Assembly: GCF_002909235.1 (NCBI RefSeq)
Contig: NZ_PHQQ01000002.1
Location: 310,001-374,000 of the forward strand
Reading direction: 5' to 3'
DNA from: Arenibacter catalasegens
GTDB taxonomy: Bacteria > Bacteroidota > Bacteroidia > Flavobacteriales > Flavobacteriaceae
DNA: 64,000 nucleotides
Each line of letters begins with the position of its first letter. Within the stretch, counting starts at the first letter, position 1. The translations under genes and the position numbers were made by a program. Below the pieces are notes generated by a model. It searched no databases. It was given only the letters and a program-made list of their open reading frames with translations, and was not told where the DNA came from. Positions 23,352 through 62,185 of this stretch are shown one piece after another.

Positions 23352-23378
23352 CCAATTAAGATCGAGGTGTTTTTTTTG

Positions 23379-23453
23379 TGGGACATACTGGATTCGAACC
23401 AGTGACCTCTGCCCTGTCAAGGCAGCGCTCTAAACCAACTGAGCTAATACCCC
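23379..23453 (-). tRNA. tRNA-Val (anticodon GAC)
   Basis: The minus strand folds as a full cloverleaf. The acceptor stem GGGGTAT pairs with ATGTCCC (two G-T pairs), the D arm contains AGCTCAGTTGGTTTAGAGC, the anticodon stem CTGCC/GGCAG holds the loop TTGACAG (anticodon GAC), and the T arm is CTGGTTCGAATCCAG. CCA is not fully encoded. It stands alone on the strand opposite to murF. Confidence 0.95.
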
Positions 23454-44054: not shown

Positions 44055-44696
44055 TTAAAACCCCTTTACTTCAGCCTTTATCTTCGCAAAATGCTGGCCA
44101 AGGCCTTCAAAATTTCTTTCCTCGATCAACTTTTTGTTAAAGAGGGAACTTCCCATTCCCACCCCAACGGCTCCAGCCTCAAAAAAAGATTTGACGTTCT
44201 CCAAAGTAACTCCACCCGTTGGTAAAAGCTTTATATTGTTAAGTGGGGCAGAGATGTCCTTAATAAATTGAACTCCAAGCTGAGTAGCAGGAAATATCTT
44301 TACTGCAGATGCCCCTAAGCGCCAAGCTTTATAGATTTCGGTTGGAGAATAGGCCCCCGGGAAAATTGGTATCTCTTGGGCTACAGCAGTATTGATAACC
44401 GCTTCATCCAAGATCGGAGTTACAATAAACTGGGCACCTGCCGCTACGGCCCTATCGTAATCTTCCATATTACAGACCGTTCCTGCCCCGACATTGAGAT
44501 CCTGAAATTCGCTCCTTAGTTTGGAAATCATCTCTGTTGCCCCAGCGGTATTCATGGTAATTTCAATGGTGTGCAGACCTGCCTTGAGATAGGCCTTGAC
44601 TATATCCCGCATAACATCAATGGAAACTCCTCTTACAATACCAACTATAGGGGCCCTATTATAAAGTTCCCAAGAAAATGATTCATTATTTGACAT
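44055..44696 (-). CDS. dgoA: KDPG/KDPGal aldolase
   Basis: A 213-residue class I aldolase that splits 2-dehydro-3-deoxy-6-phospho-galactonate (or gluconate) into pyruvate and glyceraldehyde-3-phosphate. The Schiff-base lysine is in ASAVKIFPATQLG, and the general acid Glu in HTIEITMNTAG. GAGTV and LPTGGVTLENV bind the phosphate. It overlaps the upstream 2-dehydro-3-deoxygalactonokinase gene by 11 bases, which makes the galactonate pathway the likely one. A galactonate dehydratase (DgoD) gene is not in the window. Confidence 0.92.
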   Translation of the reverse strand: MSNNESFSWELYNRAPIVGIVRGVSIDVMRDIVKAYLKAGLHTIEITMNTAGATEMISKLRSEFQDLNVGAGTVCNMEDYDRAVAAGAQFIVTPILDEAVINTAVAQEIPIFPGAYSPTEIYKAWRLGASAVKIFPATQLGVQFIKDISAPLNNIKLLPTGGVTLENVKSFFEAGAVGVGMGSSLFNKKLIEERNFEGLGQHFAKIKAEVKGF

Positions 44697-45639
44697 GTTG
44701 TTCTAAAATTTTTCGTTGTCCAACCAATAAGGCCTTTTCTATATATTGTGGATCAAAACAAACAATTCGCTCCAAAGGCAGGAACGATTTCAAAGCCAAT
44801 TGGTACAATTCGTTCTGGATTCCAGTGACTGCAAGGTACACGGTTTCGCTCTTTTCTTTCAAATGGCTCAACTCCGCCCCTATCAACAATCCCGATAAAT
44901 AATAATAGTTTTCCTTACTTGAGGTTTTATGTATTAAACTATTTGCCCTAATGGAAAATAGCGAGGCCATCTGTTGGTTCGCAATTCCTTTTTTAACACC
45001 TTCCGCAAAAATATCCTTAAATGAAGGGCTCCATCCTACTTCTTCCACTGAAGCTGACAAAATAGTGTGCTTCCTTATAACTTCAAATAATTCGCCCGTC
45101 ATATAGGTAGTAAAATCTATAAATCTCCCGGCATCAAAAAGAATATGTTTACTGTGGGTGCCAGGTAATACCAGAATACCCTTTTCATCCCTAGGTAGAT
45201 AATCGGTTAGTCCAATGGCCTGAATTTCTTCCCCTCGCATTACATCGTTATTAGTTCTAGCCCCAGAAATTAAAAGAAGGTCAAATTTGCCCCCAAGTGA
45301 AAGCCAACTGCTTATCAGTTCTTCTCCACTAAAGGCCATGGGCAATTTGCAATACTCCAATTCCTGCATCCCAATGGAAGAAGACAGCATTCCAGAAGCA
45401 ACTAAATAGTTGTTTTCGACCCCGTTTAAATCCAACTTTTCCAGCTGCGACATCAAATATTCTGCAAAAAAATCCTGTTGGGACCGTACCTTTTGCTGTG
45501 AATATAACTGATAGCATTTTTTAATCCCTAAATCGGTCCTGATTTCGGAAAGCACCTTTAATGAATTGAAATCCACCAAACGGAGTCTAAAATTGGACGT
45601 TCCCCAATCACAACTTATAAATTTTTTTTGTAGCTCCAT
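44686..45639 (-). CDS. dgoK: 2-dehydro-3-deoxygalactonokinase
   Basis: 317 residues of the DgoK family. The start FISCDWGTSNFRLRLVDFN contains the ATP-phosphate loop DWGTSNFR, and ILVLPGTHSKHILFDAGRFIDFTTYMTGELFEVI (in two parts, about residues 155-190) is the family signature. LAVTGIQNELYQLAL is near the C-terminus. It phosphorylates 2-dehydro-3-deoxygalactonate in the cytoplasm, the product then being split by DgoA. It starts the dgoK-dgoA-lactonase group, all minus strand. Confidence 0.93.
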   Translation of the reverse strand: MELQKKFISCDWGTSNFRLRLVDFNSLKVLSEIRTDLGIKKCYQLYSQQKVRSQQDFFAEYLMSQLEKLDLNGVENNYLVASGMLSSSIGMQELEYCKLPMAFSGEELISSWLSLGGKFDLLLISGARTNNDVMRGEEIQAIGLTDYLPRDEKGILVLPGTHSKHILFDAGRFIDFTTYMTGELFEVIRKHTILSASVEEVGWSPSFKDIFAEGVKKGIANQQMASLFSIRANSLIHKTSSKENYYYLSGLLIGAELSHLKEKSETVYLAVTGIQNELYQLALKSFLPLERIVCFDPQYIEKALLVGQRKILEQHVK

Positions 45640-46277
45640 GATTGTTACAAAGCTTTAGTACTCTTTTTTTATGTGGTAATCGTCATGTATGTAGGTTGAA
45701 CAATACTGGCCAATACCACTAGTGTTGTTACAACAGAGGGAAGGTAAATATTATATTTAAGTCCGTTCGGCTGTACGTCAACAAATACCAATTTTTTGGA
45801 AAAATACGCCATTTTATTTTATCTCCGGAATATACATAGGAAGCAAGTCCGGCTTCCCTATAGTTGCCCATTCAATTGAAAAACAACATTATGTTGATGT
45901 AGCTTAAAATTTATGAAAAAATAAAATCGAACCCTAAATAAGCACTGAGACCAAACAAAAAAGCACCTAATTTCTTGGAAGCCTTGTCTTTGTTACTTTG
46001 GACCCTAATCTTCGTTACATAATTATTATAGTAATCTAAAAAGTATTTTAATCATTTATTGCAACTATTCCTGATTTAACCTTTGAAGTAAAACCATTGC
46101 AAATCCGGAAATACTAGACTTTTCTTAGTATGACTGGTTTCTTCAGAATTTGTTAGAAAGCCAGGTTCCAGCACTTCTCTCGAGAAAGTAAATAAGATTT
46201 CTAAATAAACCTGAAATTTGGTAAATTTTATTTCCCAAATTTAAACACCCATACTCCCATAATCCATTGTTGATTAA
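45640..46277. other. Intergenic region with a tRNA-terminator repeat
   Basis: 638 bp between dgoK and a sulfatase gene. Apart from the repeat at 45949-46008 I see only short open stretches (for example EWATIGKPDLLPMYIPEIK read on the minus strand near 45830-45885), which look like decayed coding DNA. No start-to-stop gene is convincing. Confidence 0.45.
45949..46008 (-). repeat. Degenerate copy of a tRNA-Val 3' end and its terminator
   Basis: About 60 bp closely resemble 50340-50399, the DNA at the 3' end of the tRNA-Val(TAC) fragment: gaccaaacaaaaaag, tttcttggaagccttg and tctttgttact are shared exactly. The tRNA part itself is degraded (tttggaccctaatcttcg in place of tgtgggccctactgggttcg). 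It is read as the scar of an older duplicated or integrated tRNA end. Confidence 0.65.
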
Positions 46278-47894
46278 TCAACTTTTCACAGGGTGCTCAG
46301 TTTTTATATTGACTGGCTGATTGGCCTCTACATCAAAAAGTGGTGTACCTACGAAATCTGGATCGATCGTTATAGAGGGTTCACTTTTTAAATAAATCAA
46401 TGACCCCTCAAAATTGGGATATTTTTCCCTGAGGGCATTATACTCTGGATTTACACATTCCTTGCCCCAAATCCCCAACATAAATTTCAAACCAGCTTCC
46501 TTTTCCCCATATTGCCCTTTATCGTCCGTTTCAACAATCCATTTATCCAACACGGATCGGTATTTTGTCAATACTTCTGAATATTCCGGATTCTCTGCCA
46601 AATTGTTCAATTCAAAGGGGTCTGCTTTTAAATCGTATAATTCTTCCGAAGGGCGTTCATCGGACATAAATCGATCCTGTGCCTCATTTAGCTTTCCTTC
46701 GGCATGCAATTGCTTCATCACCCCTACGAACTCCACCTTGTCAAAATCCATATAAGTAGGCTGGGAATAAGGCCTATCCGTCATAAAATTCAGAATATAC
46801 TTATGATCCTTTGATCGTACAGACCTAATGCGGTCTACAGTGAAATCGCAGCGATCCCTGGTTGAAATTACATATTCCCTTGGCGCCATTGAATCATTAA
46901 AAATGTTCCTGCCTTCCATATATTCAGGTACGGGAATACCCGCCAAAGCCAGTGAGCTGGTACCAAGGTCCAAGCCACCTACCAGATCATTATTAACACT
47001 GCCCGGTTTAAGTTTTTTATTACCGTCTCTAAAATCTGCAATAATCAAGGGTACATGTAGTCCGCCATCATAAAGAAATTGTTTGTTCCTGGTCAAGCGC
47101 ATACCATGATCTGAGAAGAAGAAAACAATGGTGTTTTTAAGCAGATTGTTTTCTTTTAATTTATCCATAATCTCACCTACTTTTTCATCGGTAATCTGAA
47201 TTGCGTCCAAGTGATTGGCATATTCTTCTACAATTGCAGGGTGATTCGGTAAATAGGACGGCATTTGAATTTTAGATCGATCTACCGGGGAAGTTACATT
47301 TTCCTTGAATTTGGAATTAAAAATCTCCTTCCCCCCATACATCTGTATTTGTCCAAAAAATGGTTCCTTTCCTGATAGCGTTGCAAGATCCAATCTTACT
47401 CCTCCTTTACCATACAAAGGATGATATGTATAATCTTGATCATAAAGTTCCCTTCTATCATAAATGAAATTATAGTCATCCTTACCATTATTAAATGTAA
47501 AGTATCCTTCCTTCTTAAACAGCTCGGGAATGGTCTTCAAATTCTCTGGCAAATATATTGCCGATTCAACAGTCCTGGAACTATGATGGTTCTGGGCACC
47601 AATAGTGGTAGACATAGTCCCGGTAATGATGCTTGAGCGACTGGCCGAACAAACGGGAGCAGGCATATACACATTAGTGTAAAGAACACCTTGTAAAGCA
47701 AGACTGTCTATATGGGGGGTAGCAACAAGAGTCTCGCCATAACTCCCCATAAGTGGAGCGGTATCCTCTAAATATATCCAAAGGATATTGGGTTTAACGG
47801 TATGCTGATCCCCGTCTATTTTTTCTGCACTATTATCCTTACAGGATACGAGTAATGTCGCTGAAAAAGAAATTAGCAAGATGATTTTTTTCAT
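46278..47894 (-). CDS. Sulfatase lipoprotein (S1 family, heparan-N-sulfatase-like group)
   Basis: 538 residues with a lipobox (LLVSC, Cys18). The formylglycine site is Cys82 in APVCSASRSSIITG. The first metal motif reads YLEDTAPLMGSYG, with Glu-Asp where most sulfatases have Asp-Asp; this EDxxP form is characteristic of one S1 subgroup that includes SGSH-like enzymes. FFFSDHGMRLTRNKQFLYDGGLHVPLII, in two parts, supplies later ligands. It lies between dgoK and a GH36-like glycosidase, both on the same strand, so it probably works on the same polysaccharide. Confidence 0.9.
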   Translation of the reverse strand: MKKIILLISFSATLLVSCKDNSAEKIDGDQHTVKPNILWIYLEDTAPLMGSYGETLVATPHIDSLALQGVLYTNVYMPAPVCSASRSSIITGTMSTTIGAQNHHSSRTVESAIYLPENLKTIPELFKKEGYFTFNNGKDDYNFIYDRRELYDQDYTYHPLYGKGGVRLDLATLSGKEPFFGQIQMYGGKEIFNSKFKENVTSPVDRSKIQMPSYLPNHPAIVEEYANHLDAIQITDEKVGEIMDKLKENNLLKNTIVFFFSDHGMRLTRNKQFLYDGGLHVPLIIADFRDGNKKLKPGSVNNDLVGGLDLGTSSLALAGIPVPEYMEGRNIFNDSMAPREYVISTRDRCDFTVDRIRSVRSKDHKYILNFMTDRPYSQPTYMDFDKVEFVGVMKQLHAEGKLNEAQDRFMSDERPSEELYDLKADPFELNNLAENPEYSEVLTKYRSVLDKWIVETDDKGQYGEKEAGLKFMLGIWGKECVNPEYNALREKYPNFEGSLIYLKSEPSITIDPDFVGTPLFDVEANQPVNIKTEHPVKS

Positions 47895-47963
47895 TATATA
47901 ATTATGCTTTAAGGATTTACCCTTTTTAATTAGTAATTATTCAAAATTATTTTTCAACTGTTT

Positions 47964-49799
47964 TCAAAGTGCCACAAATTGAACAAGACCAGAAGGTGGT
48001 ACCTCAAAAACTGATATTCCCTGATTCAATTTAATCTGTTTGTTACTTACGGTATTCCCCATACAATCCGAAATAATACATTTATACTGTCGAGTTTGGC
48101 CCGTATTATCGATTATAATTTTTTGTGAAGACTTTGCATTTACAACATCGAAGTCCAATCCTAATGTCGAATCAATATTTACAACTCTCTCAGAAAAAAT
48201 AGTGGTAATCATTTTCCTGCTGTTTTTTCCACGGATCAACGGATAATTCATTAAAGGACTTTCGGCATAGAATTCGCCTTGAAGCAGAACATCTCTATTC
48301 TTTAACCAATAGGCCGTGTAGAACTCGATCATTTTATTATGGTCTTTAGGAATGTCTGCCAAACGAACGGAAATCTGTGGTACAGAAAACAAAACATTAA
48401 GAAATTGTAATGCAGCTGTTTCAACTGGATCCTCGTAATGCCACATAAGCATGTCCGCATGTACAGACGTACTGCCACTTATAAGCCTAAGGTCGGTTGT
48501 TTCTACCCTATTGACCATTGCGGCATTCGGGCAATCCGAAGCTCTAAGCATATTGCCATATTTTCGCATTAATGGTCCGGTATATGGCTGTCTAAACTCA
48601 ATCAAAATATTAGGTTTAATATCCCGTAGGGATCTCATTAAGTCGGTCATTAATTTATCGGTAGCCAAATTTACAGAAGCATAATCCCTACCATCCTCAG
48701 CGGTAAGAACTGTGTTTTCATTAGCACGAAACCTTCCTATAAAATCTAATTTAAAACCATCCAGATCCCATTCTTCAATTGCCTTAACATATGTATTTAT
48801 GATAAACTTCCTTACCTCCGGATATCTTGGGTCAAGGACATAGGTTCCTTGGCCCTCCCAATAATCCAGAAACTTGCCTTTCATTTGTGCATAGGCGTTG
48901 GACTTCTCCCCAACAAATGGTACGGCATACCACAGCATAAATTTCATACCTATGTCGTGCACATCCTTTACAAGTTGCTTTATTTCAGGAATCCGTTCCG
49001 GTTGCCAATCACCTGTAAAGGCATATCCTCTTTTACTATCCAATGTTTGCCACCCGTCATCAACGATCACAGTCTCATAACCCATTTCTTTGGCCTGTCG
49101 ACATTCTTTTAGAATAGCATCGCTACTTATATTTTGGTGATAACTATACCAGGTTGAATATACCGGCAGATTGGCAGCTTCTGGGACCGGGGCAGGTTTA
49201 TATAGATCAAAATTCTCCCACCAGCCACTTACCTCTTTTAAAGATTCTGAAAAATGAACAGCACGAGTATCTAAATATAACTTTATAGCGTATTCCGATA
49301 TTTCTTTATGTGGCTCGGAAAAAAGTTTGATCTCATTATAGATCACACCATTCTCTTCTTTTACCGAAGTGCTGGTAATAACTGTATTCAGGGCTTCAGA
49401 AACGGCAAAAGTCTGACGATTTATATCGTCATAACCATAAAGTGTTATCACAGGAGCATCCCTAGCCAACATAGACGTAACTTTCGCTGGTCCCCAATCA
49501 GGTGTGATGGTCTTGTCCAAAAACGCTTTACTACTCCAATAACCGGCAATATTGGTTGCAGGGGCAGACCACTTTATAGATATGTTCTCGGGAGTAAATT
49601 TTTTATCCCCTTTTAGGTTGATAGTGGCTATATCAATCCCTTCCCGCTCTGTGGATGTTAAAACTTCAATTTCATAATTATTTGCCTCATAGGTAATAGT
49701 TACTTGGTTACCCGATAAGGTAAATGACTTCTTCGAATCTTGGGAAGATGCAACTAATGTTAAATGAAGAATAACAAAATGGATAATTATGCTTTTCAT
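47964..49799 (-). CDS. GH36-like alpha-galactosidase-type glycosidase
   Basis: 611 residues with a signal peptide (MKSIIIHFVILHLTLVASSQ). An N-terminal beta-sandwich covers about residues 25-240. A TIM barrel follows: YSTWYSYHQNISSD, TVIVDDGWQT, GMKFMLWYAVPF and GFKLDFIG, with the likely nucleophile Asp352. RASDCPNA (Asp422) matches the position of the acid/base Asp. A small C-terminal beta domain ends the protein. This arrangement fits clan GH-D (GH36/GH27-like). It may release alpha-linked galactose or a modified galactose from the substrate desulfated by its neighbours. GH family number and linkage are inference. Confidence 0.82.
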   Translation of the reverse strand: MKSIIIHFVILHLTLVASSQDSKKSFTLSGNQVTITYEANNYEIEVLTSTEREGIDIATINLKGDKKFTPENISIKWSAPATNIAGYWSSKAFLDKTITPDWGPAKVTSMLARDAPVITLYGYDDINRQTFAVSEALNTVITSTSVKEENGVIYNEIKLFSEPHKEISEYAIKLYLDTRAVHFSESLKEVSGWWENFDLYKPAPVPEAANLPVYSTWYSYHQNISSDAILKECRQAKEMGYETVIVDDGWQTLDSKRGYAFTGDWQPERIPEIKQLVKDVHDIGMKFMLWYAVPFVGEKSNAYAQMKGKFLDYWEGQGTYVLDPRYPEVRKFIINTYVKAIEEWDLDGFKLDFIGRFRANENTVLTAEDGRDYASVNLATDKLMTDLMRSLRDIKPNILIEFRQPYTGPLMRKYGNMLRASDCPNAAMVNRVETTDLRLISGSTSVHADMLMWHYEDPVETAALQFLNVLFSVPQISVRLADIPKDHNKMIEFYTAYWLKNRDVLLQGEFYAESPLMNYPLIRGKNSRKMITTIFSERVVNIDSTLGLDFDVVNAKSSQKIIIDNTGQTRQYKCIISDCMGNTVSNKQIKLNQGISVFEVPPSGLVQFVAL

Positions 49800-49946
49800 A
49801 TGATTAATTCTATTAATTAATATAGTCCTATTTAATCTATGATTACCCTTGCTTCACCACTCTTGTCCTGCTCCCTTTTATGTTATTATCATCTAAATAA
49901 AAATCTTGACGAGGGTTGGATAATTTTTAATTAACATCAATTTCGT

Positions 49947-50300
49947 TTAAGCCTCCGCCTTGGACAACAAAAGATCGGCATATCTTATTATCCTGAAGTC
50001 ATGACCACTTTTCCACTCCAACATATGGTAATCCGGCCAGTATTTAAAGATAGGAATTTTATCTGGTGCTTGTAATATAATCTCATCTTCCAGATTAATT
50101 TATTAGTATATGATCTGCTCTTTTCTATCATCGTTCCGATCAAAAGAATTAAAAAAATCATAAGCTAGATTTTTGGTACCAGAAATGGATTGGCTGGACA
50201 GTTTAACATCATCGCCATTGACAATGCCTGTATAACTAATCTCAGCACAAGAGTGGGACATAATGGCGTTAGCGGTACTCTCGATTAACAATGTTGATGG
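49947..50300 (-). pseudogene. SusD-like (RagB/SusD) outer-membrane lipoprotein remnant
   Basis: On the minus strand a frame ending at 50103 contains SSQSISGTKNLAYDFFNSFD and RNDDRKEQIIY. Directly after it, in a shifted frame, comes NLEDEIILQAPDKIPIFKYW, then HMLEWKSGHDFRIIRYADLL and LSKAEA, stopping at 49947. FFNSFDRNDDRK and DFRIIRYADLLLSKAEA are hallmarks of SusD C-terminal regions (the NSFDPNDxR and RYADVLLxxAEA blocks). The frameshift and the missing N- and C-termini make it a dead fragment. No SusC partner is present. Confidence 0.72.
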
Positions 50301-50347
50301 AAAGGAGTAAATTTTTTTGTTTTCCTTTTTCGAATTTTTGACCAAAC

Positions 50348-50376
50348 AAAAAAGGCTCCCAATTTCTTGGAAGCCT
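50348..50376 (-). terminator. Terminator of the tRNA-Val fragment
   Basis: Minus strand AAGGCTTCC and GGGAGCCTT form a 9-bp stem (one G-T pair) with an 8-nt loop, followed by six T. It lies 15 bp beyond the tRNA 3' end. Confidence 0.85.
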
Positions 50377-50390
50377 TGTCTTTGTTACTG

Positions 50391-50434
50391 TGGGCCCTAC
50401 TGGGTTCGAACCAGTGACCCCCTGCTTGTAAGGC
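50391..50434 (-). other. 3' half of tRNA-Val (anticodon TAC): integration site
   Basis: The minus strand reads from GCCTTACAAGCAGG (anticodon loop CTTACAA, anticodon TAC) through GGGTCACTGGTTCGAACCCAG (variable and T arm) to the acceptor strand TAGGGCCCA. The 5' half of the cloverleaf is absent, and the 5' anticodon strand already mismatches. The break therefore falls at the anticodon stem-loop, a common crossover point of tyrosine integrases. The integrase gene begins 136 bp away. The intact tRNA should lie at the far end of the element, outside the window. Confidence 0.8.
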
Positions 50435-50531
50435 ACGACAACAGTGGTTTTATATATATCCATATTGTTTTAAATGTACTGATATAGAGCATATTAGTAA
50501 TATATAAATTCATATTAAACCAAATAAACCC

Positions 50532-50570
50532 TATATTTGTTTATAAATAGTTTATAAATTTATAAACAAA
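50532..50570 (+). promoter_or_regulatory. Integrase promoter with 12-bp inverted repeat
   Basis: A -7 box TATATTTG (50532-50539) is followed by a perfect inverted repeat: tttgtttataaa at 50536-50547 and tttataaacaaa at 50559-50570, with a third gtttataaa between them. The right arm ends on the A of the ATG. Confidence 0.65.
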
Positions 50571-51790
50571 TGCTAACGACCAAAGTCCTTCTCAATAAAG
50601 TGCGCCAGAAAAAAGATGGCACCTATCCTCTTGCAATAAGAATAACCTATAACAGAAAAACTATATACCTGCCCCTAGGATTTAATTTACATGAAAAAGA
50701 TTTCGATGCCAAAAATCAACGTGTTAAATCCTCGAACAGGATTGTCTTGAATACGACCAGGCTAAATAACCATATCCAGGAAAAACTAAAAAAAGTATAC
50801 GATACTATCATACAATTGGAGGAAGAAGGAAAAACAGAAAACCTTTCCATGCCCAGCCTCAAAAAAGCGATCGAAGGAAAATTAGTCGGTGGAAAGGACT
50901 TTTTTGAACTTACGGACGAGATTATCGAGGAGCTTGAAAATGCCAGAAAATATGGAAACGCTCAGATATATAAGAACATGAGGAACAAAATAAAAAAAAT
51001 CCACAGTAAAGAATTCCTTCCCTTTACCAAAATCGATTATTCCTTTGTAAAACGTATGGAAACCGAACATTATGGAGCAGGTTATGGTGCGGGAGGACTT
51101 AGCGTATATCTTAGAACATTAAGAGCGGTATACAAAAGGGCTATTAAAACCGGAACCGCTAAGGAAGAGAACAATCCCTTTAACGACTATTCCATTAAGA
51201 GCGGGGTGCCAAAAAGAAAGTTTCTAAATGGGGAACAATTGGAAACACTGAAAACCGCCAAAATTGTGGGATCACACTTGGCCAAAGCTAGAGATCTCTA
51301 TATGGCCTCATTCTATTTACGGGGCATGAACTGGATGGATATGTCACTCCTAAAAGGCAACAGTATCCAAGGTGATTTTGAGCGTATAATCTATATAAGG
51401 TCCAAAACAAAGAATAAGCTATTTTCTATAAAAATAACCCCAGCGCTTAAGGAGATCCTAATTACATTTAACGATGGGATAATCGGCACCAACGATTACG
51501 TTTTCCCCATCGTCCCCAAAGGTAATCATGGAAGCCAGGTCCATGAGACAATTAAGAATAAACGCAAAAGACTGAACCATTATCTTAAACAATTGGCAGA
51601 AAAATTGGAGCTCCCGCCGTTTACTATTTATACTTCACGGCACACCTATGCCAATATTCTGAAAAGAAGCGGCGCACCTAGCAGTGTAATCCAGGACAGC
51701 CTAGGCCATACCACAGAAGCCATGACCCAGGTCTACCTCAACTCGTTCGAAACGAATATCATTGACGATTTTGATGCCAAAATAATGTAG
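50570..51790 (+). CDS. Site-specific tyrosine recombinase (integrase)
   Basis: 406 residues. An arm-type DNA-binding domain begins MLTTKVLLNKVRQKKDGTYPLAIRITYNRK, in two parts. A SAM-like core-binding domain covers about residues 105-215 and the catalytic domain runs from about residue 220. Catalytic Arg I is in FYLRGMNWMDM, the box II region reads YTSRHTYANILKRSG, and the nucleophilic Tyr is in LGHTTEAMTQVYL. The layout is that of Bacteroidota phage/conjugative-element integrases. Its position beside the tRNA-Val 3' half makes it the enzyme most likely to have inserted this element. Confidence 0.95.
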   Translation: MLTTKVLLNKVRQKKDGTYPLAIRITYNRKTIYLPLGFNLHEKDFDAKNQRVKSSNRIVLNTTRLNNHIQEKLKKVYDTIIQLEEEGKTENLSMPSLKKAIEGKLVGGKDFFELTDEIIEELENARKYGNAQIYKNMRNKIKKIHSKEFLPFTKIDYSFVKRMETEHYGAGYGAGGLSVYLRTLRAVYKRAIKTGTAKEENNPFNDYSIKSGVPKRKFLNGEQLETLKTAKIVGSHLAKARDLYMASFYLRGMNWMDMSLLKGNSIQGDFERIIYIRSKTKNKLFSIKITPALKEILITFNDGIIGTNDYVFPIVPKGNHGSQVHETIKNKRKRLNHYLKQLAEKLELPPFTIYTSRHTYANILKRSGAPSSVIQDSLGHTTEAMTQVYLNSFETNIIDDFDAKIM

Positions 51791-52078: not shown

Positions 52079-52744
52079 GTGAACGATATTTTCATGTTTT
52101 ATTTGAAACAGGACGAAACCTTAAAAAAACCCACAGTAAACTGGCGCATACATCAATTGGTGGAAAAGGGTGTAATGCAACGGATAGGTAGGGGAACATA
52201 CAAACTTGGCCAACAAAAGGAATTTGCTCCATTGTTGTCCGAAGACCTCAAATCCATATATGGGAATCTCAAAGAAAAGTTTCCATTCCTGGACGTTTGT
52301 ATTTGGTCTACACAGTGGCTCGTTTCATGGATGTTACATATTCCCTTTATACATGAGACGATCATTGAGGTCGAAAAAGGTGCTGAGGAGAGTGTCTTTT
52401 ACTTTTTAAGTTCTGAAAGGGAAAATGTCTTTTTAAATCCCAAAAAGGATATTTTGGAAAAATACGCCAAGCACGCAACAGATATAATTATCATCAAGAA
52501 TTTAGTGACAGGATCCCCATTACAAAATATGGACAACGTCCAGATCCCTACCCTTGAAAAAATATTGGTCGATCTGCTCGTGGATATCGAATTGCTTTCT
52601 GCTTACCATGGACGCGATCTGGAAAGCATCTTTGAAAATGCCTTCAGATATAACACCATCAATATGGACAAACTCCTCCGCTATGCAGGAAGAAGGGGGA
52701 AAAAAGATTTCGTAGAACAAAAAATCAAGGATATATTGGAATAA
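52079..52744 (+). CDS. AbiEi-type antitoxin, putative transcriptional regulator
   Basis: About 221 residues from a GTG. The N-terminal part contains a winged-helix-like segment (NWRIHQLVEKGVMQRIGRGTYKL, in two parts), typical of AbiEi-like antitoxins. The frame stays open upstream to a stop at 51980 and reads LHIDTLKKNFKNAASIS before the GTG, which resembles the expected N-terminus. No ATG occurs there; an ATA at 52019 sits where a start might be expected. So the true start may be non-canonical or lost. Its stop overlaps the toxin ATG (TAATG). Confidence 0.8.
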   Translation: MNDIFMFYLKQDETLKKPTVNWRIHQLVEKGVMQRIGRGTYKLGQQKEFAPLLSEDLKSIYGNLKEKFPFLDVCIWSTQWLVSWMLHIPFIHETIIEVEKGAEESVFYFLSSERENVFLNPKKDILEKYAKHATDIIIIKNLVTGSPLQNMDNVQIPTLEKILVDLLVDIELLSAYHGRDLESIFENAFRYNTINMDKLLRYAGRRGKKDFVEQKIKDILE

Positions 52745-53784
52745 TGATCTCATCTAAAAGCCTACATATCGATTGGATAAGCTCCAAGACATCCGAATTT
52801 CATGCGGATCCCATAATAATCGAAAAAGTAATCCGGGCATTGGCCCTATTGGAAGGCCTTAAATCCGCCGATTTGGATTTTATTTTTAAAGGCGGCACTG
52901 CCCTAATGTTGATGATCCAGGAACCCAGACGATTTTCGATCGATATCGATATCATTATAACTGATAAAGGACAGGACATTGAAGGTGTTCTGGAAAGAGT
53001 TGTGGCAGTGACCGACTTCATTTCTTGGGAAGAACAAAAAAGACATACGGCTTCCGCTATTGAAAAAAGACATTTCAAAATATTTTACCGGCCTCAAGTA
53101 AAAATGAGGGGAGATACCAATTATATTCTTTTGGACATAGTCTTTGCTGAAAATCCCTATGTTTCGACACAGGAAACCAATGTGTCCCACTTCCTATTAT
53201 CGGAAGAAGGTAGCCCCGTTACGGTCTTAACTCCAACTCTTCCGGCTATTCTCGGGGATAAACTGACCGCTTTTGGGCCGAATACGACTGGGGTCCCAAT
53301 GACCAAACCAATGGACGTTCTTAAACAAGTTTATGATATTGCCGGTATTACCGATAGATTGACTGTTCTTGACGGGGTCCGGGAGAATTTCATCAAGGTA
53401 GCGAAAGGAGAGTTGGCTTATAAGGGATTGAATCCAGATAATTTTCAGCCGATCATTGATGACATCGTTAATAGTTCATTCAATTTTTGCACCTACGGAA
53501 AAGTTGACAAAACCTCCTATGTCACCATGCAGTCCGGAGTAAGCAAACTATCATCTTATATCTACGGGCCAAAGTTTCGAGAGGCACAGGCCCAAATTGC
53601 TGTGGCCAAGGCCTCATATATCGTTAAGCAGATCGAAAAAAATAGCACTGAAATCGAACATTATGATCAAGGGGCCGATATGACGGAATGGGTCATCGGC
53701 GAACATTATTATTCAGGATTGAACAAACTCAAGAAACACAACTTGGAAGCTTTCCACTATTGGCACAAAATCTTTGCAAAATAA
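52744..53784 (+). CDS. AbiEii-type nucleotidyltransferase toxin
   Basis: 346 residues of the nucleotidyltransferase AbiEii/AbiGii family. The active-site motif is FKGGTALM (Gly50-Gly51-Thr52), followed by FSIDIDI with Asp67 and Asp69 as likely metal ligands. In the type IV AbiE toxin-antitoxin system, the toxin inhibits growth (related MenA-type toxins modify tRNA) and the system can abort phage infection. It is translationally coupled to the AbiEi-like gene. Such pairs are common on integrative elements, where they stabilise the element or protect the host. Confidence 0.9.
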   Translation: MISSKSLHIDWISSKTSEFHADPIIIEKVIRALALLEGLKSADLDFIFKGGTALMLMIQEPRRFSIDIDIIITDKGQDIEGVLERVVAVTDFISWEEQKRHTASAIEKRHFKIFYRPQVKMRGDTNYILLDIVFAENPYVSTQETNVSHFLLSEEGSPVTVLTPTLPAILGDKLTAFGPNTTGVPMTKPMDVLKQVYDIAGITDRLTVLDGVRENFIKVAKGELAYKGLNPDNFQPIIDDIVNSSFNFCTYGKVDKTSYVTMQSGVSKLSSYIYGPKFREAQAQIAVAKASYIVKQIEKNSTEIEHYDQGADMTEWVIGEHYYSGLNKLKKHNLEAFHYWHKIFAK

Positions 53785-54302: not shown

Positions 54303-54932
54303 CTATATTGAAAGTCCCCTGCCCTTGTACTTCGAGTAATCCGTAAGTTCGTCCTTGAAGCCGTTGAAAACTTCTTCCTCTTTGTTTTTATTGCTTCCCA
54401 ATAAATTGCCCAGGGCATAGATACCTTGTCTTAGGAGACGGGCCTTTTCGGCATCAATCCGTTTTTTAGAAACGGCCAGCAGAGTTTCCTTGAATCCGTT
54501 CTCCATATGGTGTTCCAATATCTCCAAAGGCAGATTGGGCCTAACCCCGTCCAAAACGAACAAATAAGCGGCCTTTTTATATTGTCCTCTATCCAATAAA
54601 TATCCCGACCATAGATTTTTCAAATTGTCCCGTCCATCGGTCCTAATATCATCTAAGATTTTAACTTGATTATCCAAGGTCTTGTTCAGGTTGCTCAATG
54701 ACTCCAGATAAGCCTGCGTTTTCTTCGGAAGAGGAACACTGACTTGATACTTGGAATATATCGAACCGATACAAAGTTTCCCTTCCTGTTTCTCAAAATA
54801 AAAGCCTTTGGCATTGAAAAACTCCATATAGTCGTCCGGGGATTTTTCAAAGGATACCTGTAGACGCTCGGCATATTTATAATAGGCCTTCAGGCTTAGG
54901 CTTTCAAATTGTTGCCTGTATTTTGGGTTCAT
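54303..54932 (-). CDS. Mobilisation-associated protein of unknown function
   Basis: 209 residues, soluble, without recognised motifs. It is rich in Lys, Leu and Tyr and probably mostly helical; the C-terminal half is DGVRPNLPLEILEHHMENGFKE followed by ISKKRI-like basic stretches. Its ATG overlaps the relaxase stop codon by four bases, so the two are coupled and it likely assists DNA transfer or relaxosome stability. This role rests only on position. Confidence 0.6.
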   Translation of the reverse strand: MNPKYRQQFESLSLKAYYKYAERLQVSFEKSPDDYMEFFNAKGFYFEKQEGKLCIGSIYSKYQVSVPLPKKTQAYLESLSNLNKTLDNQVKILDDIRTDGRDNLKNLWSGYLLDRGQYKKAAYLFVLDGVRPNLPLEILEHHMENGFKETLLAVSKKRIDAEKARLLRQGIYALGNLLGSNKNKEEEVFNGFKDELTDYSKYKGRGLSI

Positions 54933-56587
54933 AGCAGCGTAAAGTTCGGGAACATCAATGGCAAGAATATCGCCGTTGGGCGTAGGTCGATTTCTTTTGT
55001 CTTTTTCTTGTTCAGAAGTCCGCCCAATACTTTTTCATTTTCTTTGATAAAGCCTCTGGAGACATATAAATCGTTTTGCTTTGGTAACAGTATAGCACCA
55101 ATATCCAGCTTGACTTTGTGTCGGTAGGAATTCACATAGGTCAGTAGGTCATTGTCATATTTGGCTCCGAGACTGTGCAGAAGCTCGAAAAGGACTTCCC
55201 TTTGCTCTGGTATATCAAAAAGCTGTTTGTCGATGGCCTGTATTATAAGTCCTGCCTTTACCTGCAATTCCCGTTCTTTCCTTGTCGATTCCGCCCTATA
55301 AAGCAAGTCTTTTGTAATATCGAATTGCGCCTGTATCAAATCGCCCAGGTGGCGGTTGTCCGTCTGAAGATACTTTTTTAGAAATTTGAAACGTTCCGAT
55401 TTGACCATTTCCGTTACTAGGGGTTTTATGGGCATTCTATCGATATGCTCCGAATAAAGTGTCTTGCTCCCCGAAGCTTTATGGGTGTTTTTGTAGGCTT
55501 CCCTGATACATCTTTGAAGCTCCAGTTGCAGTTGTTCGCTTTCCGCATACATCTGGGTATATTCACTTTCAAACAATGTGGGGCTTTGAAGGATTCCAAT
55601 ATCACCCCCTATTTCCCCGCTCTTGAGAACATAGCCCGATTTGTCATAAATGGTAAAATCCACGAGTTTCCCTTTCGCATCGTAGTCTAGCTTACAATCC
55701 AATTTTTGATGGGCTTTTAAGATCTCTGGAAGGTGTCCGGGATTTATAGTCCTGAAAAGTTTGTAAGTGGTACGCAGTTGTTTTTCCAGCCGTTTCTTGA
55801 CCATCGGCAATAGTTTTGAGCTTTTGTTACGGTCAAAGACCTTTTGAAGTTTGGGTCCGCTCAGCTGTGGATGGACGGTATAACCATTGATGAACCTTGA
55901 CCTATAGCCATCCTTTATGGAAATTCCGTAGGCCACCCCTACTCTGTTATTGTAGTTTACCTTCCTTACCTCAATATGGTGCGCTTTTAGCAGTTCGGAC
56001 AACTCCTTAAAGCTTCGAACATTGTATTTCTGCATGGTGTTGTTTATGATATCCTGGATATAGAACCTGACTCCGCTAATGTCTTCGTTCTTAAATTGTG
56101 GATTCTGATGTATTGGGAGCTCCTTGTCCTGTCGTATTCCGGGAGACAAGGAGAGCCCAAACTGCTTTTCTAGGTGTTTTTGGGTGGCTACGGATCTTTT
56201 AAAGTCATTGGAAAGGTTTATTTGCAGACAATCCTCCTTGATGGTGGTCGAGACGATATGGACATGCTCGTGCTTGGTATCGTGGTGGCGCACCACCATA
56301 TAGGGCTGTTCCCCATAGCCCATATGTTCCATGTACGCTTTGGAGAGTTCAAAAAAATCCGTGTCCTCCAATTGTTCGCCACGGGGAAGATTAAGGGTGG
56401 CGTGCACATACCTTCTTTCCGAATCGTGCCGATTTCCCAAATAGTCGAGTACCCTTCCAAAAAACTTTGTGTTGGTATCGGTATCGGAATAGGTGTTCTG
56501 GAAGTCGAGGATGGAAGACTCAGGTTTCCCAAGTACATATTTCAATACCCCTTGTACATTGTTTCGATAAAGTATCCTTGCTATCAT
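54929..56587 (-). CDS. Relaxase/mobilisation nuclease
   Basis: 552 residues. The N-terminal relaxase domain carries the metal-binding motif in VVRHHDTKHEHVHIV (His106, His108 and His110 forming HxHxH), and Tyr residues near the N-terminus (Tyr7, Tyr17) are candidates for the nicking residue. The rest is a long, mainly helical region (about residues 200-552). Relaxases nick oriT and lead the strand into the conjugation channel. No coupling protein or type IV secretion genes are in the window, so the element is probably mobilised by another element's machinery. The broken mobC gene lies 2 bp upstream. Confidence 0.93.
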   Translation of the reverse strand: MIARILYRNNVQGVLKYVLGKPESSILDFQNTYSDTDTNTKFFGRVLDYLGNRHDSERRYVHATLNLPRGEQLEDTDFFELSKAYMEHMGYGEQPYMVVRHHDTKHEHVHIVSTTIKEDCLQINLSNDFKRSVATQKHLEKQFGLSLSPGIRQDKELPIHQNPQFKNEDISGVRFYIQDIINNTMQKYNVRSFKELSELLKAHHIEVRKVNYNNRVGVAYGISIKDGYRSRFINGYTVHPQLSGPKLQKVFDRNKSSKLLPMVKKRLEKQLRTTYKLFRTINPGHLPEILKAHQKLDCKLDYDAKGKLVDFTIYDKSGYVLKSGEIGGDIGILQSPTLFESEYTQMYAESEQLQLELQRCIREAYKNTHKASGSKTLYSEHIDRMPIKPLVTEMVKSERFKFLKKYLQTDNRHLGDLIQAQFDITKDLLYRAESTRKERELQVKAGLIIQAIDKQLFDIPEQREVLFELLHSLGAKYDNDLLTYVNSYRHKVKLDIGAILLPKQNDLYVSRGFIKENEKVLGGLLNKKKTKEIDLRPTAIFLPLMFPNFTLL

Positions 56588-57599: not shown

Positions 57600-57740
57600 G
57601 TAACTGTTACAGGAGTGGTTTACGCGCAAGAAATCGACTTAAGCAGACTGCTTAAGGAGCCTTTAGAAGAACTGGTTTTGATTGGATTTGCTAACAAAAA
57701 ATGGTCAGGTAGCTTTGGTAGGCATCTATATTCGTCCTGA
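57600..57740 (+). pseudogene. Fragment of a secreted or receptor-like protein, cut by the IS remnant
   Basis: A frame without its own ATG reads VTVTGVVYAQEIDLSRLLKE then PLEELVLIGFANKKWSG and ends inside the transposase 3' end. The start looks like the end of a signal peptide (VYAQ|EID), and LSRLLKEPLEELV resembles the N-terminus of some TonB-dependent receptors. The assignment is weak. Confidence 0.25.
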
Positions 57741-59204
57741 AAATGCCAAGGGAGGGTTTCCTTGCTCCTTTCTTAAGGTACTTTTTCAGGTTGAAGGCAA
57801 TTGCCGCCATGAGCATGACCTTATGTGCACCGGCCTTGCCCAGTTCGCCTATTTTTCTTAGACCGTAGAACTGGGTCAAACTACCGAATACGGGCTCCAC
57901 TGTACTTTGACTTGGTTTTTTCATTTGTTTGCCCCTTTTACTATGTTGTCGGCCGTAAGCCCTTAAATATTGTTCGTCATAAACCGTTCTGGTGATTTTT
58001 TTGCATGATGTATTTGCTTCACATTGAGATTTCATGGGGCAGACCTTGCAAGCCTTCGATGATGCCCGGTAGCTTTTCAGTACGGTACCATCCCGGTTTG
58101 TATGGAATCCTTTGAAAGGTAAGGGCCTGTTCATCGGGCAACTATATTCGTCCTTTTCCTTATCATAGGGAAAACCTTCTATCTTAGGTTTGTATTTCCC
58201 GAAAACGGGTATCCATCCAGTAACCTTCCTTTGTTCGAGAAAATCGTAGTTGGCACCATTGGAATAACCTGCGTCCGCCAGGAGATCCGTCATTATGAGC
58301 TCGTTCTTCCTTAAACGGTTCTGGACCCGCAGGCTGATATCGGTCAGGTACTGGCTGTCCCTGTCGTCGGCAAACTCCGCCTGGATATGCGAGATGACCC
58401 CTTCCGCGGTATCCACCTCCATACTTTAATGGTAGTTTAGCTTTCTGGCCTTGCCCGGCTTTACCGATATTCGGGCATCCGGATCATTGGGGTTAAAGTG
58501 CATCTTGTTGCCAGGCAGGCGTGCTTTTTTTGTGGGATGCCCCGGCAGGGGCGTACCGGACTGTCCCTTAAGTTTCGCTGGTGTTTCTCTACGCGCTTCA
58601 GCTCGTGCGCAGGAGCGGAGATAAATGCGGGGGGTACAGTTCCCTCATGTTTTTCGATAGTTTCCCGATTTTCTTCCGACACTTTTTTCAAGTGGTCGCC
58701 TATGGAGGTGGCCGGCACTTTTACCACTACGCTTTCCATGGACGCATTTGCTTTTATCGGGGCCGAATCCACCGCCTGGGTATGGCCTGATACCATTCCG
58801 CTGTCGACACACAGGGCAAATACCTTGTTGAACAATGTCCCGAACAGGGATGTTGGGTAAAGTTGCCCCGTCCTGCAGATTGTTGAATGCCATGGCAGAT
58901 CCTCGTCTATGTCATAACCCAGAAAGTAGGGCACGTCCATTCGCATGAAGCAATGTTCCACCAGTTTTCGGTCGGAGGTGATGTTCTCAAGGTATCCCGT
59001 AATCAGTAACTTAAAAAAGACCACGGGGTCGATAGAGGGGTTGCCCGTCTTACCATAAAGTTCCTTCGTTTCCTTATAAAGAAAACTTAGGTCAAGCGTT
59101 TCGCGGAGTCTTCTGTAAAGGTTTTCCTTTGGAATCCGGTCCGATAACCGGAAGCTGAGGAAGAGTTTTTCGGTATAATTCTTCCTGCCTTGCAGGTCTT
59201 TAAT
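57691..59204 (-). pseudogene. IS1182-family transposase, doubly broken
   Basis: On the minus strand an open frame begins after a TAA at 59207 without ATG: DLQGRKNYTEKLFLSFRLSD, then NPSIDPVVFFKLL, ENITSDRKLVEHCFMR and DSAPIKANAS, the IS1182/DUF772 N-terminal half. At about 58578 one base is missing (frame shifts inside HQ-(A)KLKGQSG). The continued frame then meets a TAA at 58426-58428, between LNYH and SMEVDTAEG. The C-terminal half runs on to DAYQSYLTIFC with ADAGYSNG and FNLKKYLKKG. Start loss, frameshift and stop together make it inactive. Terminal inverted repeats were not identified. Confidence 0.85.
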
Positions 59205-59372
59205 TTACGGATTTCCGCACATTTATAGAGGCAAAAATTGATGTTTATCGGAGTTCTGCAACAGCCACGTTCGTTTTGTGAATCCCTTCTAGAATAACAT
59301 ATTAAAATGTAACCCATATACACTCCTTAACTCAAAATTTAAATTTCTATAAAAGTTAAAATAAAGTTAAAT

Positions 59373-59394
59373 ATAAACAGACTTGTCTGTTTAT
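59373..59394. promoter_or_regulatory. TetR operator at its own promoter
   Basis: A perfect palindrome with 10-bp arms: ATAAACAGAC-TT-GTCTGTTTAT. It spans the region of the -33 element (TTG at 59383-59385) of the tetR promoter. The 14-bp core recurs exactly at 60044-60057 and 62444-62457. Confidence 0.75.
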
Positions 59395-59407
59395 TAAAAA
59401 TGTACCC

Positions 59408-59415
59408 TATATTTG
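59408..59415 (+). promoter_or_regulatory. -7 promoter box of the tetR gene
   Basis: TATATTTG matches TAnnTTTG, 22 bp from the TTG in the operator. Only four bases separate it from the ATG at 59420, so the mRNA would be leaderless or nearly so. Confidence 0.65.
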
Positions 59416-59419
59416 TCCT

Positions 59420-59980
59420 ATGAGAAAGTTAGGTGTAAAAGAACGTATCATTGAGACAGCTTCAGATTTGTTCTATAATCAAGGTTATAACCAGACAGGT
59501 ATAAACCAGATTATAGACGAGGCAGGCGTAGCCAAAGCTAGCATGTATCAGCATTTTAGGTCGAAAGAAGACATTGCTGTAGCATATCTGGTTGGTAGGC
59601 ACACCATGTGGATGGGTAAATTAAATGATTGTGTTTCTTCACAAAAACCATCAAAAAGTAAAGTAATAGCGTGTTTTGATTATCTTATGGAATGGCTCAC
59701 AGATAACAATTTTAGAGGGTGTGGGTGGCAGAATATCATAACGGACTTACCAGAAGGACACGACAAGATTAGAAATCAGGCAGTGCTTCACAAAAATGAT
59801 GTTCGTAAATGGATTCATGATTTACTTAAACAAGTGAGTGAATATAGTGATCAACAGGCCGAGGAACTGGGTGATGAGGTATTGGTTTTAATTGAAGGTG
59901 CCATAATCTTATCTCAAATACAAAAGGATGATTGGCCTATTCAAGTTGCAAAAAAGGCCTGTATAAAATTACTCGTCTAA
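59420..59980 (+). CDS. TetR/AcrR family transcriptional regulator
   Basis: 186 residues. The N-terminal helix-turn-helix reads RIIETASDLFYNQGYNQTGINQIIDEAGVAKASMYQHFRSKEDI, in two parts, at about residues 9-52. The C-terminal domain with RGCGWQNIITDLPEGHDKIR resembles TetR regulators that control oxidoreductase or hydrolase genes (TetR_C-like). The ligand is unknown. It is followed by a cassette of five plus-strand genes and very likely represses both itself and that cassette through the shared palindrome. AT content is higher than in the mobilisation module. Confidence 0.92.
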   Translation: MRKLGVKERIIETASDLFYNQGYNQTGINQIIDEAGVAKASMYQHFRSKEDIAVAYLVGRHTMWMGKLNDCVSSQKPSKSKVIACFDYLMEWLTDNNFRGCGWQNIITDLPEGHDKIRNQAVLHKNDVRKWIHDLLKQVSEYSDQQAEELGDEVLVLIEGAIILSQIQKDDWPIQVAKKACIKLLV

Positions 59981-60043
59981 TTTCCAAACATTAAAAATAT
60001 GATAAGAAACCATACTAAAAACTATTAGAGTATCAAATTATAA

Positions 60044-60057
60044 ACAGACTTGTCTGT
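60044..60057. promoter_or_regulatory. TetR operator before the DUF1348 gene
   Basis: The 14-bp core ACAGACTTGTCTGT, flanked by ATAA on the left as at the tetR site. AACATTTG at 60078-60085 is a near -7 box, 42 bp before the ATG at 60127. Confidence 0.65.
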
Positions 60058-60126
60058 ATGTTTAACAATCAAAAAATAACATTTGTAATCATACGGCATA
60101 TAGACAAGTATTTTAAACAATAAGTA

Positions 60127-60537
60127 ATGAAAAAAATAGTCCCTCCTTTTACATTGGAAACCGCAGCACAAAAAGTTCAACTAGCAGAAGATGCCTGGAA
60201 CAGCAAAAACCCGGAAAATGTCTCTATGGGCTATAGTATCGACTCACAGTGGAGAAATAGAGATAAATTCTTTGCCGGTAGACAAGCTATAGTTGACTTC
60301 CTATCAGATAAATGGAACAAAGAACTGCACTACAAGCTCAGAAAGCATCTTTGGTCCTTTACCTACAATAGAATATCCGTTCGGTTCGAGTACGAATGGC
60401 AGCAAGCCACAACCGGACAATGGTACAGAACCCATGGAAACGAGCATTGGCAATTCGACAATGAAGGACTTATGGAAATAAGAGACATGAGTGCCAATGA
60501 TATAAACATCAAAGAATCAGAACGTAAATTTAAATAG
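60127..60537 (+). CDS. DUF1348 / SnoaL-like (NTF2-fold) protein
   Basis: 136 residues of the DUF1348 family, a cone-shaped alpha+beta (NTF2-like) fold. The family start PPFTLETAAQKVQLAEDAWN and the aromatic stretch RFEYEWQQATTGQWYRTHGNEHWQF (in two parts) are clear. Such proteins bind small hydrophobic ligands; a few catalyse isomerisation or hydrolysis, but for DUF1348 no reaction is established. It is the first gene of the TetR-controlled cassette, directly behind an operator. Confidence 0.88.
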   Translation: MKKIVPPFTLETAAQKVQLAEDAWNSKNPENVSMGYSIDSQWRNRDKFFAGRQAIVDFLSDKWNKELHYKLRKHLWSFTYNRISVRFEYEWQQATTGQWYRTHGNEHWQFDNEGLMEIRDMSANDINIKESERKFK

Positions 60538-60709
60538 AAACAAAAACCAAAGTAAAATCTTAAAAGGAAACATTATAAGCATACCGAATTGGTAAATGAA
60601 ACATAAAGTAAGAGATTAAGATACTATCTCCTCTAAAAAGAAACATATACTGTGGAAGTATTAATTAACTAAAAATTATTTCAACAATAATTACTAAAAA
60701 GCAAAAATC

Positions 60710-60821
60710 ATGAAAACATTGAACAGCAATCGAATTTCAAGTCAATCTAGAAGCACAAAAAGTTTCTTTTGGAATAGTAAAAGACGACACAAATAAGAAG
60801 GCCTTATTGAATTACAATTAA
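60710..60821 (+). pseudogene. Frameshifted small ORF
   Basis: The ATG at 60710 opens MKTLNSNRI and soon stops. If one A near 60721 were absent, the frame would read MKTLTAIEFQVNLEAQKVSF then GIVKDDTNKKALLNYN, a 37-residue protein-like sequence. It is a decayed gene start or a fragment; the family was not recognised. The start copies the pattern catgaaaacattgaa seen at the next gene. Confidence 0.35.
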
Positions 60822-60845
60822 TTAATAATAAAAAAACAAAACAAT

Positions 60846-61400
60846 ATGAAAACATTGAAACCTTTAACAATAGAAGAAGCAAACGAAAATTCACAAGCAA
60901 TTTTTAAGGCAGTTAAAAGTAAGATCGGTATGGTACCAAATCTGTACGCAACTATGGGCGTATCAGATAAATTATTAGGAGGTTTTTTAGCCTTTACCGA
61001 AACCCTTAAAAGCGGAGAATTTACTGGCAAGGAATATGAAGCCATTGCTTTGGCCACATCGCAAGCAAATGGCTGTGCATATTGTTTATCAGCTCATACA
61101 GCAATTGGAAAAATGAGTGGGTTTACCGAACAAGATACCCTTGATATTAGAGACAAGTCAATCGCAGACTCAAAATTGAATGCTTTGGTAACATTAGCAA
61201 GCGAATTGGTCAACTTAAAAGGGCATCCCACAGAAACAACAGTAGACAATTTCTTAGAAGCCGGTTACAATAGAGCTGCATTTGCTGAGTTAATTGCAAT
61301 TGTTGCACTAACTACTATTACGAACAATATATATCATAATGGTGGCTTTGAAATCGATTTTTCAAAAGCTAAAAATATTGAACAACTGCAATTAGCATAA
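60846..61400 (+). CDS. AhpD-like carboxymuconolactone decarboxylase family protein
   Basis: 184 residues, all helical. The redox-type motif NGCAYCLSAHTAIG (Cys77, Cys80, His84) is the CxxC-xxxH signature of the AhpD/CMD family, known for peroxidase-coupled electron transfer and, in others, for lactone chemistry. The peroxidase-related YciW/AhpD subgroup often starts with MVPNLYATMG, as here. It is the second intact gene of the cassette. A role in handling a reactive organic compound or peroxide is inference from context. Confidence 0.9.
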   Translation: MKTLKPLTIEEANENSQAIFKAVKSKIGMVPNLYATMGVSDKLLGGFLAFTETLKSGEFTGKEYEAIALATSQANGCAYCLSAHTAIGKMSGFTEQDTLDIRDKSIADSKLNALVTLASELVNLKGHPTETTVDNFLEAGYNRAAFAELIAIVALTTITNNIYHNGGFEIDFSKAKNIEQLQLA

Positions 61401-61425
61401 TTAATTAACACTTAAATAAATCAAA

Positions 61426-62160: not shown

Positions 62161-62185
62161 TTATTAACTATTAAATTTAAATAAA

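Follow-up and report, generated by a model that had tools for sequence, protein, structure and literature searches.

A worn tRNA-Val(UAC) end beside polysaccharide genes of Arenibacter catalasegens: a possible recombination seam in a genus-wide integration hotspot

Site-specific elements such as ICEs and IMEs can stack at one site and be pruned later, a process known as accretion, and the locus described here resembles it in both respects, as read from sequence anatomy. For islands in tRNA and tmRNA genes, the part of the Islander description used here distinguishes sub-sites A, at the anticodon, and J, at the T/acceptor junction, and recognises tandem arrays where every island comes with a fragment and an integrase of its own (PMC4383910). 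Our locus shares with the islands of that description the tyrosine integrase, the anticodon-centred site, the regenerated intact tRNA gene at one end and the displaced 3′ fragment at the other (PMC4383910). With the ssrA islands of Dehalococcoides, as given in the portion of their description used here, it shares the numerous direct repeats derived from the 3′ end of a single RNA gene within 100 kb, the niche genes carried as cargo and the presence of islands that are perhaps fixed; Dehalococcoides has a serine recombinase and a 20-bp ssrA repeat, whereas our locus has tyrosine integrases and a tRNA-Val block of ~90 nt (PMC3146451). Insertion into tRNA genes is a well-known mechanism and it is the place that appears newly described: the open-licence literature searched contained no published description of the hotspot in Arenibacter.

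The window is a stretch of 64,000 nucleotides from Arenibacter catalasegens (assembly GCF_002909235.1, contig NZ_PHQQ01000002.1, positions 310,001 to 374,000, forward strand). A sequence-only reading had proposed that a tRNA-terminator block at 50340-50399 is repeated in degenerate form and in the same orientation at 45949-46008, which we call the scar. This repeat was confirmed: 45949-46007 matches 50340-50399 at 91.7% identity over 60 nt, with 4 mismatches and 1 gap (E 1.6e-17, 49 sequences searched), and an ungapped alignment of 45957-46007 with 50349-50399 gives 90% over 51 nt. The block is indeed a tRNA-terminator, but a longer one than proposed, as it runs to 50435 and contains, on the minus strand, the 3′ half of the tRNA as far as the anticodon. 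The attribution to tRNA-Val also held; the intact source, however, is the tRNA-Val(UAC) gene at window coordinate 73586-73661, beyond the window (G000:C12:383586-383661), and not the tRNA-Val(GAC) gene at 23378, a different gene that is not the integration target. The gene adjoining the intact tRNA-Val(UAC) belongs to the Mur-ligase family and is presumably folC. Features are collected in Table 1.

Table 1. Features of the scar region, of the present element and of related tRNA-Val ends, in window coordinates unless a contig or locus is named.
Feature	Position	Strand	Evidence and remarks
Intact tRNA-Val(GAC), conserved far edge of the variable interval	23378..23453	-	ARAGORN; same flanking genes in relatives read
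DGOK (2-keto-3-deoxygalactonokinase) gene, left neighbour of the scar	44686..45639	-	Pfam PF05035 4.6e-52
Degenerate remnant of an aldehyde dehydrogenase 3′ end	45640..45876	-	Right edge approximate; stops in the frame read
Scar: worn tRNA-Val(UAC)-type terminator and last 9 nt of the tRNA gene	45949..46007	-	
Segment S	46044..46242	.	Second copy at G000:C7:67821-67999
Sulfatase gene	46278..47894	-	Pfam PF00884 8.7e-33; CSASR at residue 82
GH36/GH31-like glycoside hydrolase gene	47964..49799	-	Pfam Melibiase 2.8e-10, GH31 3.1e-7
Region with degenerate SusD-like remnant	49840..50324	-	Named by eye from reading frames
Relic of ~20 nt, like the right end of other species' elements	50324..50343	.	
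Displaced 3′ half of tRNA-Val(UAC) and terminator, left end of the present element	50344..50435	-	99% to the intact gene over 92 nt
21-nt direct repeat TTGTTTATAAATAGTTTATAA	50537..50557	.	Exact string, also beside the intact tRNA at L009:10514
Tyrosine recombinase (integrase) of the present element	50570..51790	+	Pfam PF17293, PF13102, PF00589
AAAGTGAGC-type repeats	L072:10716, L076:16747, L090:334, L011:4726, L087:10449		

The block at 50344, the adjoining tyrosine recombinase and the 21-nt repeat at both ends therefore delimit a present element of ~23 kb, from 50436 to about 73627. It is built like a tRNA island: the intact tRNA lies at one end and the displaced 3′ fragment at the other, in the same orientation, with a tyrosine integrase (Pfam PF00589) beside its end. 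The repeat is possibly an integrase arm site. A MobA/VirD2-type relaxase gene at 54929-56587 suggests that the present element may be mobilizable. Just inside the element, 52079-53784 encodes a DUF6577 protein and, after it, a nucleotidyltransferase of the AbiEii type; the two resemble a toxin-antitoxin or phage-defence pair. Cargo at 57691-63172 begins with a DDE transposase (57691-58422), followed by genes for a TetR regulator and for carboxymuconolactone decarboxylase-like, isochorismatase-like and alpha/beta hydrolase proteins.

We compared 18 genomes of the genus, this one (G000) included; these are draft genomes whose intervals were read in part. In the eight with both tRNA genes on one contig, the interval from tRNA-Val(GAC) to tRNA-Val(UAC) measures 1.8 kb (G012), 2.2 kb (G008), 2.6 kb (G015), 4.3 kb (G013), 50 kb (this genome), 113 kb (G004), 203 kb (G002) and 213 kb (G005), and its flanking genes recur in the relatives read. 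The genomes with intervals of 1.8-4.3 kb are not close relatives of this one, and they hold no displaced fragment among the matches listed. Displaced tRNA-Val(UAC) 3′ ends number at least 19, in 10 of the 18 genomes. Among those listed, the T-arm and anticodon core survive in 16, and every one of these has an integrase-like gene, scored within 2.5 kb to its right by tblastn with four integrases that themselves came from beside four of these blocks. Some cases are qualified: the integrase match of C7_68 is 29% identical and lies beside an apparent tRNA-Leu fragment, that in G014 is partial (341 of 411 residues), and that of G009 fragment 2 is interrupted by the contig end (320 of 399). The three ends without a core are the scar, G011 fragment 1 and G006 fragment 1, and an integrase-like gene accompanies none of them. 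Because all core-bearing ends listed have such a gene and no core-less end does, repeated use of the tRNA-Val(UAC) site by successive elements, which the sequence-only reading had supposed for this one place, is well supported across the genus.

Other tRNA-Val ends of this genome lie on contig C7, where ARAGORN detects no intact tRNA-Val. Two of them (L011:4532-4616 and L013:5829-5937) have the same right flank, and the integrases beside them are 82-83% identical to one in G002. Elsewhere on C7 a tRNA-Val(UAC) 3′ end lies ~110 nt from an apparent displaced tRNA-Leu 3′ half (L014:8213-8500, that is G000:C7:68213-68500), and an intact tRNA-Leu(TAG) is found at C7:92694. This contig seems to bear stacked elements with two tRNA specificities. 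Several tRNA-Val ends are flanked on both sides by AAAGTGAGC-type repeats, which are perhaps integrase arm sites of one element family.

The scar itself is a worn structure, with a predicted hairpin energy of -7.1 kcal/mol against -20.7 kcal/mol for the block at 50344. Its best matches are the block at 50340 and the block of G016, both with a score of 93, and all three have GACCAAAC to the left of the hairpin. The stretch 45984-46045, to the right of the scar hairpin, aligns to the block with a score of 38, equalled in none of 2000 mononucleotide shuffles (best 26). The hairpin pattern GGCTYYCAATTTCTTGRRAGCC has six matches with up to 2 mismatches in the whole genome, five of them in tRNA-Val(UAC) blocks and one on contig C20, and the reversed pattern has none; the scar's own hairpin is too worn to fit the pattern at 2 mismatches. 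The idea of a common genome-wide terminator was rejected, since the hairpin is rare in the 18 genomes (one to six matches per genome) and the reversed control gives no match in any of them.

Identity to the tRNA ends after GGACCCTA, 9 nt into the gene, and by our own reading of the intact tRNA this is one nucleotide past the junction of acceptor and T-stem. Over the next 38 nt (46008-46045) T-arm similarity is absent, as 1666 of 2000 shuffles score equally well, which rules out a decayed T-arm at this position. The scar's end is therefore a sharp breakpoint rather than the outcome of gradual decay. The scar has neither T-arm nor anticodon crossover core, and tblastn with the four integrase queries found no integrase within 2.5 kb to its right. 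Lacking both integrase and crossover core, it is not countable as an island end of the Islander type, going by the part of that description used here (PMC4383910).

To the left, the scar borders a DGOK locus that is conserved in three sister species. DGOK orthologs lie on the Val(GAC) contig in G003, G005 and G009, and 45640-45950 is homologous to their DGOK flank at 68-71% identity. Within it, 45630-45870 matches at 77% over 245 nt the 3′ end of an aldehyde dehydrogenase gene located upstream of DGOK in G017, where that gene is complete. At the position of the scar, the three sisters have a similar hairpin with 0-1 mismatches to the pattern, its loop inverted in G003. Similar hairpins are found elsewhere in the genus too, so that of the trio may be unrelated to tRNA-Val. 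A search for the element right-end (arm) motif (E 20, 1.39 Mb) returned no match in the DGOK flank. A profile of this motif, made from 14 block flanks, has sites on both sides of several blocks; applied to the DGOK flanks as a targeted test, it gave weak and mixed results, with scores reached by none of 200 shuffles for G003 and G009 and by 12 of 200 for this genome, and no match for G005 or C20.

To the right, 46260-50324 holds the sulfatase gene, the GH36/31-like gene and the SusD-like remnant, all three in agreement with the sequence-only reading (named here by Pfam, and by eye for the remnant). This piece starts 253 nt beyond the scar and ends 16-20 nt short of the block. Beside the dihydrouridine synthase gene (the dus locus), G003 and G005 carry a segment homologous to sulfatase and remnant: the sulfatase relatives are 91% identical (G003:C8 and G005:C9), the sulfatase part matches the segment at 89% over 1.75 kb, and DNA homologous to the remnant region adjoins the sulfatase as far as 50324 in G005 and 50188 in G003. 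The GH gene is missing from the dus-locus segment, its 3′ end remaining; in G005, reading by eye, it was apparently lost between two TGATT repeats (L119:11235-11345). At E 1e-40 the only other match to the GH36/GH31-like gene in the 18 genomes is a 45% relative in G006. In all five other genomes with sulfatase relatives of at least 70% identity, these are on contigs with no tRNA-Val gene or end among the matches listed. The dus locus of this genome, on C11, has phosphoesterase, pectate-lyase-like, GH95 and GLAA-B-like genes in the corresponding interval, and the right-hand neighbour of the G003/G005 piece has no relative above 40% identity in this genome. Since the piece lies at the dus locus in G003 and G005 and other genes take that place on C11, the polysaccharide piece occupies different loci in sister species.

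Between the scar and the sulfatase lies segment S, which occurs twice in the 18 genomes, both times in this one. The copy on C7 lies 10 nt left of a decayed tRNA-Val(UAC) 3′ half, whose score was reached in none of 2000 shuffles. S as the native downstream flank of the sulfatase was ruled out, as it has no match in G003 or G005. At the other edge, the homology to the polysaccharide piece of G005 stops at 50324, where the relic starts. Matches of 109 nt starting at this position are found in G016, G017, G011 and G006, and the relic shares 17-19 of 24 nt with five blocks (next best 15). The relic, noticed after the fact, would be the best sign of an earlier element.

A second pair of loci bears on the DGOK flank. 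Right of the hairpin, G003 and G009 have a 468-aa gene with no Pfam match, an FGGY kinase, a TIM-barrel gene and an aldolase/dehydrogenase gene, a set that we take to be a rhamnose-type operon. In G005 only 151 aa of the 468-aa gene are left, and directly adjoining are genes that lie ~15 kb further on in G003. The 468-aa gene of this genome (93% to that of G003) is on contig C20 with its neighbours, adjoining a tRNA-Val-like hairpin (87% over 45 nt); the flank there is common to G003 and G009 and is shared with none of the eight other genomes, in which the 468-aa gene has other contexts. DGOK and the 468-aa gene thus flank the hairpin in three species and lie on two contigs in this genome, each with a tRNA-Val-like hairpin, a pattern that suggests recombination at such hairpins.

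In the flank tree this genome is sister to the trio of G003, G005 and G009, with G009 placed by the left-side genes only. In the tree of the 468-aa gene it joins G017 (support 1.000) instead of G003 or G009, the DGOK tree departs from the species tree, and the other genes of the 468-aa set give yet other trees. For the rhamnose-type operon of this genome (G000:C20:20657-28440), the 468-aa gene goes with G017 and the kinase falls near G001/G003, conflicting trees that are probably a sign of gene exchange. Altogether, the reticulate gene trees speak against simple vertical descent of the adjacency or the split of DGOK and the 468-aa gene. Because of these trees, of the sister position of this genome and of the other contexts of the 468-aa gene, the two genes may never have adjoined in this lineage.

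Several origins of the scar can be weighed on this evidence. The sequence-only reading had taken 46.0-50.3 kb for one older element, and in this case the scar would be its displaced end, the element having carried the sulfatase and GH genes and lost its 5′ part. The piece does lie between two copies of the tRNA end, and the check proposed with that reading, absence as a unit in sister strains, came out in its favour at this place: DNA beside DGOK differs in all three sisters and 46008-50343 is lacking there. Worn ends without an integrase also exist in G011 and G006, but their right sides have no significant similarity to 46008-46280 (best E 0.22). The older unit, however, lacks what would make it a tRNA island, as neither tblastn with the four integrases nor the ORFs (sulfatase, GH and SusD-like remnant) gave an integrase of its own for 46008-50343, and the scar does not reach an anticodon-type crossover site. 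Moreover, the DGOK locus forms its left flank, where the sisters have a similar hairpin; the T-arm is missing sharply rather than decayed; and in two sisters DNA homologous to the cargo lies at another chromosomal locus. We regard this origin as unlikely, if deserving of some weight. An end left by a second class of integrase, cutting between T-stem and acceptor as at Islander sub-site J, would match the point where identity stops; yet no J-type fragment with an integrase occurs among the displaced ends listed and none of the integrase queries matched within 2.5 kb to the right, which makes it highly improbable.

Local duplication or gene conversion, in which the DGOK-side hairpin received a copy of the 50340 block and no separate element took part, would account for the shared GACCAAAC, for the rank of that block among the scar's best matches and for the similar hairpin of the sisters at the same place. 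It leaves segment S unexplained, given the link of S to another tRNA-Val end, on C7, and with 4 mismatches and 1 gap in 60 nt such copying was not recent; we consider it improbable. The sequence-only reading had itself named tandem tRNA-Val genes as the finding that would speak against insertion, the scar then being the remnant of a second tRNA-Val(UAC) gene. Such pairs do exist at the locus, 155 bp start to start, in two of the 18 genomes, G012 and G008 (L064:4879-5109, L065:5368-5598), and the terminators of the two copies are unlike. The second copies nevertheless fit the scar poorly, with scores of 17 and 22 against 93 for the 50340 block (the first copies score 50 and 64), and the scar is fused to the DGOK flank instead of to a tRNA or to folC. 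A tandem origin therefore has very little to recommend it.

Our preferred reading, with a probability of about 0.5, is that the scar is a worn, truncated copy of the tRNA-Val(UAC) 3′ end and terminator in a genus-wide hotspot, later reshuffled, and that it is best seen as a recombination seam built on this tRNA-end copy. Judging from the anatomy of many genomes, tyrosine-integrase elements would insert in the anticodon region of tRNA-Val(UAC), each bringing its own 3′ half and terminator that restore the tRNA gene, with the displaced 3′ half and terminator staying at the element's far end. The relic at 50324-50343 points to an earlier element at the site. The scar would not be a clean displaced end, given the sisters' hairpin at its place, the stop at the T-stem/acceptor junction and the lack of an adjoining integrase. 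Most likely, recombination between the DGOK-side hairpin and a tRNA-Val terminator copy took place, and we infer that through it element-associated DNA (segment S) and the polysaccharide-locus piece came to adjoin the DGOK locus. None of the genomes compared holds an intermediate of this proposed recombination.

The split DGOK and 468-aa loci with their hairpins, together with the discordant gene trees, raise a broader and rather doubtful idea: that leftover rho-independent terminators of tRNA-Val(UAC) act as dispersed seams, at which host recombination with similar hairpins shuffles polysaccharide-catabolism cassettes (the DGOK operon, the rhamnose-type operon and the sulfatase/SusD piece) between the hotspot and other chromosomal loci. 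If true, tRNA scars would remain a driver of modular change in carbohydrate loci well after the elements themselves were dead. Beyond this idea, the comparison defines a genus-wide integration hotspot between tRNA-Val(UAC) and folC, whose length differs by up to ~200 kb between species of this marine genus, and yields attachment-site relics that grade from intact ends into barely visible ones. The position connects the traffic of mobile elements with polysaccharide genes being gained and relocated.
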